Positions 11,840 to 16,152 of a stretch of 64,000 nt of DNA are shown here, piece after piece. Source of the DNA: Lachnospiraceae bacterium (GTDB lineage Bacteria > Bacillota > Clostridia > Lachnospirales > Lachnospiraceae); contig JAFUFL010000044.1 in NCBI GenBank assembly GCA_017469935.1, positions 39,264 to 103,263 of the forward strand, given 5' to 3'. Under the pieces are notes generated by a model. That model was given only the letters and a program-made list of their open reading frames with translations, had not been told where the DNA came from and ran no database searches. Each line of letters opens with the position of its first letter. The first letter of the stretch is position 1. The translations under genes and the position numbers were made by a program.

Positions 11840-13183
11840 TTATTTTTTTCCTTTGACGACAAATACGGGAACCGTCCTCTCATTATCGTGAGCCACGATA
11901 ATATTCTCTTCACAGGCCATGCGCATCAGCACGCCGGCGAACTTTCTGTTGTAGACATAGAGCCCCGGCATGTTGATGTAAGGGTGCCACTCTCCGTCTC
12001 CCCAGGCGAAATCAATATTGTCTGTCATATACTGTCTGCAGTATTCCTGGCAGAGATATCCCGTTCCGTAAAGGTCACCGGTCAGTTTGTCCCAGTCCTC
12101 CTGCGAGTAGTCCTTGCCGGCCGCGTAAATTCCCTTAGAGGCATATGCGTCCATGGGTTTGATGATCCACCTGTCCTTGGTGCTGCGCACTTCCTCGAGC
12201 GAGATATACTCGGGTGTCAGCTCCAGTGTGAGCGGGATATGCTTCTCTGCGAAGTCAAATTCCTCCTGCGTCAGTATGGCCTTCGTCATCTCGTGGCGCA
12301 GGACATGGAAAATCCACTTGTTGTGGATGATCTGCGTCACGAAGGCGCCGGCAATAAAGACAGCGTCATCGCGGACGGCATTCACAAAATCCTCCACTTC
12401 TTCAAAGTGGGCCATGATATCCGCCGTAACAGCTCTGCGGTAGATGGCGTCGATCCGCTTTCCTTTCGCCGTGTACAGAGCGCCGCTGGTATATTTGAGT
12501 GTCCTGATATCACAGATTTCACAGTCGATGCCCGCTTTCTTAAAGCTGCGCTCAAACTCCTCGAACTCCTTGATCGTGGCGTTCTCCAGAAAATCCGCCA
12601 TGACGACAAAGGGATTCTCTTTCTTCTTCCCATAAGTGCCGTACAGGGAGAGAAAGGTCTGTACCCAGGAGTCAAACAGTTCGAACGGCTCCAGTTCGAA
12701 GGACTCTTCCACTGCCTTCTGTGCGGGGTTAAAGCCCAGCGCCTTTCGCATCTCCAGATCCCTGTACATGGCCGCCGTGCCGTCCGTATTGATCTCGCAG
12801 AAGCGGAAATCGCCGCTGTCTTTGTCATAGAAAAGATCCAGACGGGCGATGGCAAGATTTCCGTCATAAGCGGGAGGAAGAAGGATCAGTTCCTCCAGCT
12901 CTTTGGAAAAAGGAAAGAGCCTGCGGTATTCCGGGTTTTTCCTGTACTCCTCGATCACCTTGTCGAAGATCCGGATCGTAGTCTCCGTGATAGCCTCAAA
13001 CTGCTCCACCGTCTTCTCATCAAACACCTTGGGGATCTGCAAAGTCTTCTCCAACACTCCGTTGTGATTGAGAGGGGACTTCTCCAGCGCCTCCTTCATC
13101 AGAAGGGCACCTTTGCGGTTTTCCTCCATGTTCTCGTTAATATTATTCTTATAAACTTCGTATACCTGATCCTGCAGTCGCAT
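11840..13183 (-). CDS. Glutathionylspermidine synthase-like (ATP-grasp) protein
   Basis: The ATG at 13183 (MRLQDQ) has GGAGG at ideal spacing; an ATG 18 bases earlier lacks one. It gives 447 residues. The blocks FRFCEINTDGTAAMYRD (about residues 145-161) and DRWIIKPMDAYASKG (about 340-355) resemble the substrate-binding and ATP-grasp parts of glutathionylspermidine synthase-family proteins. These join a carboxylate to an amine with ATP. The amidase half of the E. coli enzyme is absent. The product in this organism is unknown and no dedicated partner gene is adjacent. Confidence 0.6.
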   Translation of the reverse strand: MRLQDQVYEVYKNNINENMEENRKGALLMKEALEKSPLNHNGVLEKTLQIPKVFDEKTVEQFEAITETTIRIFDKVIEEYRKNPEYRRLFPFSKELEELILLPPAYDGNLAIARLDLFYDKDSGDFRFCEINTDGTAAMYRDLEMRKALGFNPAQKAVEESFELEPFELFDSWVQTFLSLYGTYGKKKENPFVVMADFLENATIKEFEEFERSFKKAGIDCEICDIRTLKYTSGALYTAKGKRIDAIYRRAVTADIMAHFEEVEDFVNAVRDDAVFIAGAFVTQIIHNKWIFHVLRHEMTKAILTQEEFDFAEKHIPLTLELTPEYISLEEVRSTKDRWIIKPMDAYASKGIYAAGKDYSQEDWDKLTGDLYGTGYLCQEYCRQYMTDNIDFAWGDGEWHPYINMPGLYVYNRKFAGVLMRMACEENIIVAHDNERTVPVFVVKGKK

Positions 13184-13346
13184 GTAGCTCCTCCGATCCA
13201 TCTGTATTTTGACACTATAGTACCAAAAAAAATGCGAAATTTGTAGACCTTAATCTTCCGCGTGATCAATCTGCTCTTTTTTTTACATAATGAAAGAGAT
13301 CCGGTCTCCTGACGCCCATCTATCTGAGCTTCCGGAGAATAACAAA

Positions 13347-14436: not shown

Positions 14437-15720
14437 TTATCCGATCGCCGCAAATCCGTTCTCCAGATCCGCGATGATATCATCTATATGTTCCGTTCCG
14501 ATGGAGAGACGGATCGTATTCTGCTTAATTCCCTGGTCGAGCAGTTCCTCTTCCGAGAGCTGGGAATGGGTTGTCGACGCCGGGTGAATGACAAGGCTCT
14601 TGACATCCGCCACGTTTGCCAAAAGAGAGAATATCTTCAGGTTGTCGATAAACTTCCAGGCTTCTTCCTTTCCTCCTTTGATCTCAAAGGTGAAGATGGA
14701 TGCGCCGCCGTTCGGGAAATATCTCTCATAGAGCGCGTGATCGGGGTGATCCGGGAGAGAAGGATGGTTTACCTTCTCGACCTGCGGATGGTTCCTGAGG
14801 AATTCCACGACCTTCGCGGTGTTCTCCGCGTGCCTGTCCAGTCTCAGGGACAGAGTCTCAACGCCCTGCAGCAGCAGGAATGCGTTGAAAGGAGAAATCG
14901 TTGCACCGGTATCCCGGAGCAGAATGGCTCTTATATAAGTCACAAAAGCAGCCGGTCCTACCGCATCATAGAAAGAGATTCCGTGATAGCTGGGGTTGGG
15001 ATCCGCGATATTGGGATATTTCCCGCTGGCTTTCCAGTTGAATTTTCCGGATTCCACGATTATGCCCCCGAGTGTTGTCCCGTGACCGCCGATGAACTTG
15101 GTCGCGGAGTGGACAACGATGTCGGCGCCGTGCTCGATCGGCCGGATCAGGTAAGGAGTGCCGAACGTGTTGTCGACCACCACCGGAAGTCCGTATTTGT
15201 GCGCGATCTCGGAGATCGCGTCGATGTCCGGGATATCGCTGTTGGGATTGCCCAGTGTCTCAATGTAGATGGCTCTCGTATTCTCTTTAATGGCCGCTTC
15301 GACTTCCGAGAGATTGTGAGCATCCACAAAAGTAGTCTCGATCCCATACTGCGGAAGTGTATGTTCCAAAAGATTGAAGCTCCCTCCGTAGATTGTCTTC
15401 TGCGCCACAATATGTCCGCCGTTTGCAGCCAGCGCCTCAATGGTATAGGTAATCGCTGCCGCTCCGGAAGCCAGGGCCAGGGCTGCACTTCCGCCCTCCA
15501 GGGCCGCCAGTCTCTTTTCCAGTACGTCCTGGGTCGAATTCGTGAGCCTTCCGTAAATATTGCCGGGGTCGGCGAGCCCGAATCTGTCAGCCGCGTGCTG
15601 ACTGTTGTGGAAGACGTAAGAAGTAGTCTGGTAGATCGGCACCGCGCGGGAATCCGTGGCCGGATCCGCCTGCTCCTGTCCGACGTGTAACTGCAGTGTC
15701 TCAAATCTATAGTTTGCCAT
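14437..15720 (-). CDS. metY: O-acetylhomoserine sulfhydrylase
   Basis: The ATG at 15720 (MANYRFET) follows AAGGAG and gives 427 residues. It is a Cys/Met-metabolism PLP enzyme: the cofactor lysine lies in HSATKFIGGHG near residue 208, and the N-terminal QTTSYVF block and C-terminal RLSIGTEHIDDI are typical. Length and the sulfur-operon context favour O-acetylhomoserine (thiol)-lyase over cystathionine lyases. It makes homocysteine from O-acetylhomoserine and sulfide. It heads the metY-cysK operon behind a consensus promoter and an attenuator-like leader. Confidence 0.9.
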   Translation of the reverse strand: MANYRFETLQLHVGQEQADPATDSRAVPIYQTTSYVFHNSQHAADRFGLADPGNIYGRLTNSTQDVLEKRLAALEGGSAALALASGAAAITYTIEALAANGGHIVAQKTIYGGSFNLLEHTLPQYGIETTFVDAHNLSEVEAAIKENTRAIYIETLGNPNSDIPDIDAISEIAHKYGLPVVVDNTFGTPYLIRPIEHGADIVVHSATKFIGGHGTTLGGIIVESGKFNWKASGKYPNIADPNPSYHGISFYDAVGPAAFVTYIRAILLRDTGATISPFNAFLLLQGVETLSLRLDRHAENTAKVVEFLRNHPQVEKVNHPSLPDHPDHALYERYFPNGGASIFTFEIKGGKEEAWKFIDNLKIFSLLANVADVKSLVIHPASTTHSQLSEEELLDQGIKQNTIRLSIGTEHIDDIIADLENGFAAIG

Positions 15721-15800: not shown

Positions 15801-15840
15801 TAAAAGAAGTGCCCGGGAGTTTCAAAGCGGACTCCCGGGC
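15801..15840 (-). terminator. Intrinsic terminator within the metY leader
   Basis: On the minus strand the arms GCCCGGGAGT (15840-15831) and ACTCCCGGGC (15820-15811) form a perfect 10-bp stem, followed by ACTTCTTTTA. It lies 80 bases before the metY start, so it must be bypassed for expression. The 5' arm can pair instead with the segment at 15941-15956. Confidence 0.8.
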
Positions 15841-15910
15841 AAATGGCTTTCTTAATACTTATCTCAAAGCTTTGCAGCAATCAACATCGTATCGGATCAA
15901 GGCGTACGCA

Positions 15911-16006
15911 TTAAAAGGAAACCGCCTCAGCCATATTACATGCCCGGGAGACTCGCATTCGACACCACATCCCCATGTTCTGATACTGTTTGTTTCTGCT
16001 CTTCAT
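15911..16006 (-). CDS. Candidate Met/Cys-rich leader peptide (31 residues) of the metY-cysK operon
   Basis: The ATG at 16006 is preceded by AGAGGTG seven bases upstream, and the frame runs 31 codons to TAA. Residues 11-17 read MGMWCRM, and five Met and two Cys occur in 31 residues, far above a typical protein. Codons 18-22 contain the sequence that can pair with the 5' arm of the downstream terminator. Stalling at codons 11, 13 or 15 would cover bases 29-37 of the ORF, which can otherwise pair with that segment. This matches a trp-type attenuation layout for sulfur amino acids. Translation is not shown. Confidence 0.6.
   Translation of the reverse strand: MKSRNKQYQNMGMWCRMRVSRACNMAEAVSF
15941..15956 (-). 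promoter_or_regulatory. Antiterminator segment of the metY leader
   Basis: On the minus strand GCGAGTCTCCCGGGCA copies the 3' arm of the leader terminator. It can form at least ten continuous base pairs (TCCCGGGCA region) with the terminator 5' arm at 15831-15841. The two structures exclude each other. Confidence 0.65.
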
Positions 16007-16123
16007 TTTCTGCACCTCTGACCTCGCCTTTGCCTGCGGTCTTATTTGTTGTAAAACCTGCGGCCGGGTCTGTTTTCCTGTACTTCTTTCGTATGGGAAG
16101 CACTTTCTGCTTGATTTATTGGC

Positions 16124-16152
16124 ATTATATTTCTATTCGCCTACTATGTCAA
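16124..16152 (-). promoter_or_regulatory. Consensus sigma-A promoter of metY-cysK
   Basis: TTGACA (16147-16152) and TATAAT (16124-16129) are both perfect and separated by exactly 17 bases on the minus strand. Transcription should start near 16117, giving a leader of about 397 nt before metY. Confidence 0.85.

Follow-up and report, generated by a model that had tools for sequence, protein, structure and literature searches.

What governs transcription into the metY-cysK gene pair carried by the window, the 64,000-nucleotide stretch of Lachnospiraceae DNA that was analysed here? The pair is preceded by a leader with a short ORF, and a first-pass annotation proposed trp-type attenuation for sulfur amino acids. 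In attenuators of the trp type, the sensor codons lie in a leader ORF and an antiterminator competes with a terminator. Classical leader-peptide attenuation of this kind is associated mostly with Proteobacteria and Actinobacteria, and the Bacillota are known for T-boxes and riboswitches. We suggest that in many gut and rumen bacteria a short ORF rich in Cys codons very probably allows sulfur-nutrition genes to be on only when cysteine is short. The proposal of attenuation is well supported: because of the conserved layout, the reading-frame signals, the covarying antiterminator, the terminators, the Cys codons and the sulfur genes downstream, we consider the leader to be a cysteine-responsive, ribosome-mediated transcription attenuator with a probability of roughly 84%.

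In the window, the leader lies entirely on the minus strand and has the following parts, given with the two genes behind it.

16124..16152, minus strand: promoter TTGACA-17-TATAAT, 12 of 12 consensus matches
16015..16019, minus strand: AGAGG, ribosome binding site of the leader ORF by sequence, 8 nt before the ATG
15911..16006, minus strand: leader ORF of 31 codons, ATG at 16006 and TAA at 15911, peptide MKSRNKQYQNMGMWCRMRVSRACNMAEAVSF
15962..15970, minus strand: putative sensor codons Met13-Trp14-Cys15 (ATG TGG TGT); the Cys position is conserved in relatives
15956..15961, minus strand: conserved CGAATG box (Arg16-Met17), possible 5' strand of a protector hairpin; the partner CGTTCG is found in many relatives and is weak here
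15941..15950, minus strand: antiterminator 5' strand CTCCCGGGCA, within the ORF, predicted to pair with 15832-15841; covaries at two pairs
15929..15934, minus strand: second antiterminator strand ATGGCT, within the ORF, predicted to pair with AGCCAT at 15843-15848; both sides change in 5 of 5 tested pairs
15899..15928, minus strand: inner hairpin of the antiterminator conformer, GAGGCG (15923-15928) with CGCCTT (15899-15904); both sides change in 5 of 6 pairs
15832..15848, minus strand: antiterminator 3' strands AGCCAT and TGCCCGGGAG, identified from conservation, covariation and folding
15811..15840, minus strand: terminator hairpin, -19.4 kcal/mol, z -5.0, 0 of 200 shuffles as stable
15801..15810, minus strand: T-rich tract ACTTCTTTTA after the terminator, by sequence
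14437..15720, minus strand: metY, O-acetylhomoserine aminocarboxypropyltransferase/cysteine synthase, over the cut-off of NCBIfam TIGR01326
13419..14351, minus strand: cysK, cysteine synthase A, over the cut-off of NCBIfam TIGR01139

If transcription starts about 7 nt past the -10 box, the metY ATG at 15720 lies about 397 nt from the start. The promoter and this leader length stand as first annotated, with correct coordinates, and so do the ORF with its ribosome site and the intrinsic terminator, which is followed directly by the T-rich tract. The terminator is missed by a simple terminator scan because its loop has 10 bases and the scan allows 8. It had also been claimed that an upstream copy of the terminator arm could antiterminate. 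This copy, CTCCCGGGC, is found at 15950-15942 on the minus strand, and the antiterminator fold from 15950 to 15832 reaches -40.9 kcal/mol (z -3.3, 0 of 200 shuffles as stable). Within this fold, the stop codon of the leader ORF sits in the loop of the inner hairpin, and TGCCCGGGAG overlaps the 5' arm of the terminator. Downstream of cysK, a 453-aa ORF (11840-13201, minus strand) has no match in NCBIfam, Pfam or PADLOC; its match among PDB sequences is weak, to a ligase (9cjn, E 0.29).

The leader has relatives. A DNA search of 61 genomes, namely the window's own and 60 others, found the ORF core in five other genomes of the genus and at a second place in its own genome; further matches, to query bases 1-67, fall around the promoter, and we did not take these for leaders. 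A core pattern was found 24 times among the 62 genomes of the genus, spread over 16 of them, and at 120 or more loci in named genomes. A covariance model (R1) matches in at least 19 of 62 genomes of the genus, at least 26 of 392 of the order and at least 5 of 398 of the phylum, and an improved model (R2) in at least 13 of 391 of the class. The window's genome is included in each of these counts, which are lower bounds because a limited number of candidates was scored per genome (8 in the three largest searches, 52 in the genus), and a few weak matches among them are chance. Among the matches listed are records from Lachnospiraceae, Blautia, Ruminococcaceae, Oscillospiraceae, Saccharofermentans and Oscillibacter, and two from Anaerovibrio (Negativicutes).

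Pooling candidates that matched the core expression and carried both an ORF and an arm-like match gave 143 distinct candidate leaders; they come mostly from Clostridia records, and two named ones are from Anaerovibrio (Negativicutes). Removing three with odd spacing (L189, L190, L206) and those more than 80% alike left a non-redundant set of 105, in which the window copy, dropped as near-identical, is represented by L028. The divergent L030, L102, L106 and L107, and L109, L123 and L199, which match the pattern and have no fitting arm, stand outside the 143. Three weak model matches (L068, L103, L104) and a few pattern matches, among them L123, L189 and L199, look like chance, and matches on the strand opposite true leaders were ignored. 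R1 and R2 were fitted to the antiterminator and their matches are therefore biased towards it, as is any set chosen by the arm requirement; the raw pattern matches are free of this bias.

All 143 leaders share a common plan: Met/Cys codons, CGAAUG-N5-CUCCCGGGC, AUGGC, a hairpin, GCCAU..GCCCGGGAG and a terminator. In the consensus, about 15 codons lead from the start to CGAAUG, with the Met/Cys run at their end. Five free bases separate this box from CUCCCGGGC, and about seven more lie between CUCCCGGGC and AUGGC. Next come a hairpin (GGGGCG...CGCCUC, for example) and a spacer, and then GCCAU-UU-GCCCGGGAG and the terminator. A start preceded by a Shine-Dalgarno (SD) sequence is found in frame in 100 of the 105, compared with 7 and 4 in the other two frames, and CGA most often lies 15 codons downstream of the start. 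Most often, the stop codon follows the C of CGA by 78-84 nt, and the arm follows the stop codon by 20-35 nt. A short ORF with its own ribosome site, as a ribosome-mediated attenuator would need, thus appears to be a feature of the family. Among 19 close leader pairs, there are 26, 16 and 36 differences at codon positions 1, 2 and 3, and 17 synonymous against 42 non-synonymous codons; this bias is weak and we do not count it as support. Identity with a known peptide family was rejected, as six peptides had no NCBIfam match and only weak, unrelated Pfam matches below cut-off were returned, for two of seven peptides.

Some variants were seen alongside this plan. In a sub-family (L119, L121, L141, L170, L178 minus, L184 and L191), several members of which come from Oscillospiraceae or Ruminococcaceae records, the peptide reads NFR(C/F)GRM or close to it and the arm is GTCCGGGAG. 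Of the 105 peptides, 30 end in Cys-stop, often (by eye) inside a recurring CGATGTTGA, and this terminal Cys is possibly a second sensor codon.

The first-pass annotation named Met and Cys together as the sensed amino acids, and the cysteine part of this stands better than the methionine part. Of the four codons that precede CGA, 45.5% are Cys, compared with 7.8% in the rest of the ORFs; the figures for Met are 26.4% and 3.5%. Codons for the amino acid that would be regulated are thus concentrated at one place. A Cys occurs within these four codons in 103 of the 105 leaders, and in 78 of the 103 the nearest one directly precedes CGA. In the remaining two, L141 and L178 minus, a Cys stands right after CGA-AUG. 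Met is found in 89 and missing from 16, and it is Cys, not Met, that is near-constant, which points to a sensor that is mainly for cysteine. A methionine-responsive or doubly responsive attenuator, in which the Met codons are also a working sensor, is unlikely in our judgement. The Met enrichment, the MetQ-like domain and MetN-like ATPases behind some leaders, and the fact that metY makes homocysteine for methionine speak for it. Yet Met is missing from 16 of the 105 leaders and Cys from only 2, and by the geometry a ribosome awaiting Met after CGA would reach into CUCCCGGGC.

The antiterminator arm is conserved independently of the covariance models. The arm GCCCGGGAG, with at most one mismatch, lies downstream of the core in 110 of the 113 distinct pattern matches with room for it, among the matches listed, even though the arm is absent from the search pattern; four further matches are too near a contig end. 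The same test gives 2 of 113 upstream and 3 of 113 with the reversed sequence. A strict terminator test is passed by 88 of the 105 leaders, and 104 have a T run. In an alignment of 72 leaders, 88.0% of the cells in the antiterminator helices and inner hairpin are paired, compared with 33-51% in slid controls. In the same leaders, 12 of 20 pairs of the antiterminator conformer change on both sides, and 0 of 500 shuffles reach any of the five measures used. Relatives thus bear out the check that had been proposed, with conserved Cys codons and covarying antiterminator stems. Taken together, the sequences suggest a mutually exclusive antiterminator and intrinsic terminator that share one arm, as in an attenuator.

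The covariation also bears on whether the nascent peptide, instead of a lack of Cys-tRNA, could be what halts the ribosome. In such an arrest peptide, the chain C-C-R-M-x-x-S-R-A together with a metabolite (cysteine or SAM) would cause stalling in the tunnel. Arg-Met and Ser-Arg-Ala are indeed strongly conserved as amino acids too, a conservation partly imposed by the search pattern and regular expression. However, the residues that would already be in the tunnel (codons -8 to -5 and the N-terminal parts) vary widely. In addition, the first helix changes on both sides at two of its nine pairs, from G-C to A-U, and there the amino acid changes with the strand: in L099-L101, CTCCCAGGC with GCCTGGGAG keeps the pair though Arg becomes Gln, and in L093, CTCCCGGAC with GTCCGGGAG keeps it though Ala becomes Thr. 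Where the strand changes, the pairing therefore seems to outlast the peptide, and we regard an arrest peptide as improbable.

Less probable still, to the point of being very doubtful, is an RNA of the riboswitch or T-box type that binds a ligand or tRNA and carries the ORF only incidentally. Its structure would be expected to be well conserved and covarying, as is the case here. However, the SD signals stand in the ORF frame in 100 of 105 leaders, the Cys codons are concentrated at one place, and the window and 20 diverse loci have no match in Rfam release 15 at its cut-offs; lax thresholds give chance-level matches only. A known riboswitch or T-box was rejected, since neither the T-box covariance model nor the Rfam SAM models match, which bears out the original report of no such match. 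The annotation also took as its premise that Clostridia more often use T-boxes or SAM riboswitches. In this genome, the premise holds partly: one SAM riboswitch over cut-off (L254) precedes an ORF read as metK, and a second SAM riboswitch match and five T-box matches are below the Rfam cut-off.

The genes behind the attenuator candidates largely concern sulfur. Taking the largest ORF whose start is no more than 500 nt from the arm and classing it by BLAST to representatives, we find MetY first behind 93 of the 143 leaders, CysK behind 2, a family-3 binding protein behind 26, an amino-acid ABC permease behind 8 and a MetN-like ATPase behind 5. Single leaders precede a sulfate-binding protein (L044), another binding protein (L170) and an M20 peptidase (L183), three have other genes (L078, L146, L189), and three have no ORF in reach. 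One member of the binding-protein class, L178 plus, reaches just 27% identity, and one representative has a family-3 domain fused to a MetQ-like NlpA domain. The transporter substrates must be inferred because the MetN-like, permease and binding proteins score below the curated NCBIfam cut-offs for named transporters. Subject to this, the downstream genes would make or import cysteine, as an attenuator responding to it predicts. Leaders of the same kind stand before M20-type peptidases at L183 (by Pfam) and L106 (by eye), which perhaps serve peptide scavenging for cysteine. L238, before metY, has its stop directly past the core (ICCRMR-stop) and reads as a decayed or altered attenuator. L078 precedes an HD-domain-like protein (by eye) that has no evident sulfur role. 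The early stop of L238, the few members with no evident sulfur gene and the two leaders lacking Cys before CGA count against the attenuator, as do the weak codon-position bias and some of the folding results given below (no sharp switch, a protector hairpin that does not covary, and CUCCCGGGC rarely covered from the stop).

The window's own genome has three leaders at R2 E values below 1e-10, and up to E 1 the model otherwise finds only the opposite strands of two of them. One precedes metY-cysK. Another stands before genes of sulfate uptake and reduction, each scoring above its NCBIfam cut-off: a sulfate-binding protein, CysT, CysW, a sulfate-type ATPase and the alpha subunit of adenylyl-sulfate reductase. 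The third is followed by a binding protein and a permease, by what looks by eye like another permease, and by an ATPase whose closest match, below cut-off, is the cystine transporter TcyN; this leader probably heads a cystine-like importer. From their layout, these gene groups are likely operons.

We propose that the attenuator works as follows. The leader ORF would be translated while it is being transcribed, on the assumption that ribosome and polymerase are coupled. When charged Cys-tRNA is scarce, the ribosome would wait with its A site on the Cys codon just before CGA and mask the CGAAUG box. Going by standard values for the ribosome's edge and footprint, its leading edge would be near base +9 of the box; since CUCCCGGGC begins at +11, it would stay free. 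CUCCCGGGC and AUGGC could then pair with GCCAU..GCCCGGGAG, the would-be 5' arm of the terminator, and RNA polymerase would therefore read into metY-cysK. When Cys-tRNA is plentiful, the ribosome would reach the stop codon and, in most leaders, cover the 3' strand of the inner hairpin, so that the antiterminator is disfavoured and the terminator forms. The stop position could be mapped in 67 of the 72 aligned leaders (the other five could not be mapped); a ribosome there would overlap this strand in 57 of the 67 and CUCCCGGGC in a single one.

Equilibrium folding of 103 leaders gives a mean antiterminator of 0.98 with the ribosome stalled, 0.94 with no ribosome and 0.85 with the ribosome at the stop. 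These modelled means appear to go in the direction expected of attenuation. A sharp equilibrium switch was rejected, as the antiterminator wins in all three states with medians above 0.999, and for this reason a kinetic argument is needed.

Two further pairings were considered. The original proposal paired ORF bases 29-37 with the antiterminator strand. The window copy allows this pairing (-9.3 kcal/mol, compared with a mean of -7.3 for shuffles), but the family does not share it: over 105 leaders, these segments reach only -4.1 kcal/mol where shuffles reach -4.7, and ATGGG occurs there in 1 of 105. A rival, protector hairpin, CGAAUG:CGUUCG enclosing CCCGG:CCGGG, is paired at 75.8% compared with 30-49% in slid controls, with no covariation. 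Over 105 leaders, its outer duplex averages -8.1 kcal/mol compared with -5.7 for shuffles (Wilcoxon p 5e-11). The hairpin of the window copy does not exceed its shuffles in stability (z 0.56). We find it plausible that this hairpin forms in the unstalled state.

The leader resembles several known systems. It is like the trp type in having its sensor codons in a leader ORF and an antiterminator set against a terminator. In contrast to the trp type, the antiterminator strand here lies in the ORF just past the sensor codons with the stop codon beyond it, and a ribosome at the stop would rarely cover CUCCCGGGC itself, as the mapping above indicates. SAM riboswitches (RF00162) and T-boxes (RF00230) likewise control sulfur and amino acid genes in Bacillota by leader RNA, whereas this family has no Rfam match, and the SAM riboswitch of the same genome stands before the ORF read as metK.

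Among reported cysteine leaders, the closest in kind is the uORFC-8-2 motif, found before cysS in Rhodobacterales. In the excerpted account, the motif combines stems and a U run with a short ORF whose tandem Cys codons are usually codons 14 and 15, and ribosome-mediated attenuation is proposed (PMC8632094). Since CGA here is most often 15 codons past the start, Cys likewise falls at about codons 14-15. According to the same excerpts, uORFC-8-2 differs in belonging to Alphaproteobacteria, in being reported only before cysS and in having a first stem that contains the Cys codons (PMC8632094); by that description, the present family is set apart by a pairing strand after the Cys codons, the core CGAAUG-N5-CUCCCGGGC, several kinds of sulfur gene and a mostly clostridial range. 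Actinobacteria also have runs of Cys codons before cysteine operons, and there the excerpts report no conserved terminator hairpins and suggest Rho (PMC1262725), unlike the intrinsic terminator, covarying antiterminator and SD at the start seen here. For mycobacteria, polycysteine short ORFs are named in a title in the reference list of PMC13236596. The excerpts of PMC2965389 and PMC8040213 contain nothing on the leader family, and no report of it was found in the literature searched, which consisted partly of best-ranked papers and lay mostly outside subscription journals and preprints. Thus, the kind of attenuator is known, while the leader family appears to be new, as do the range of hosts that carry it and the size of the gene set behind it.

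A bolder reading, to which we give somewhat less than even odds, is that these leaders are a new RNA family forming a spreading sulfur regulon under leader-peptide control in Clostridia and Negativicutes. One ribosome at two places would select the fold: stalled at Cys, it would mask CGAAUG and free the antiterminator strand; at the stop, it would mask the inner hairpin strand while CGAAUG:CGUUCG re-forms. If this is true, the leader takes the place that T-boxes and S-boxes hold elsewhere, and Cys-tRNA charging alone governs the uptake and reduction of sulfate, the import of cystine or methionine, and the synthesis of homocysteine and cysteine. If a conserved cysteine attenuator acts on several operons of a genome, this would account for the control of sulfur uptake and cysteine synthesis in many gut and rumen Clostridia. 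In addition, the leader would be a marker for annotating sulfur operons and for predicting the roles of unnamed transporters.
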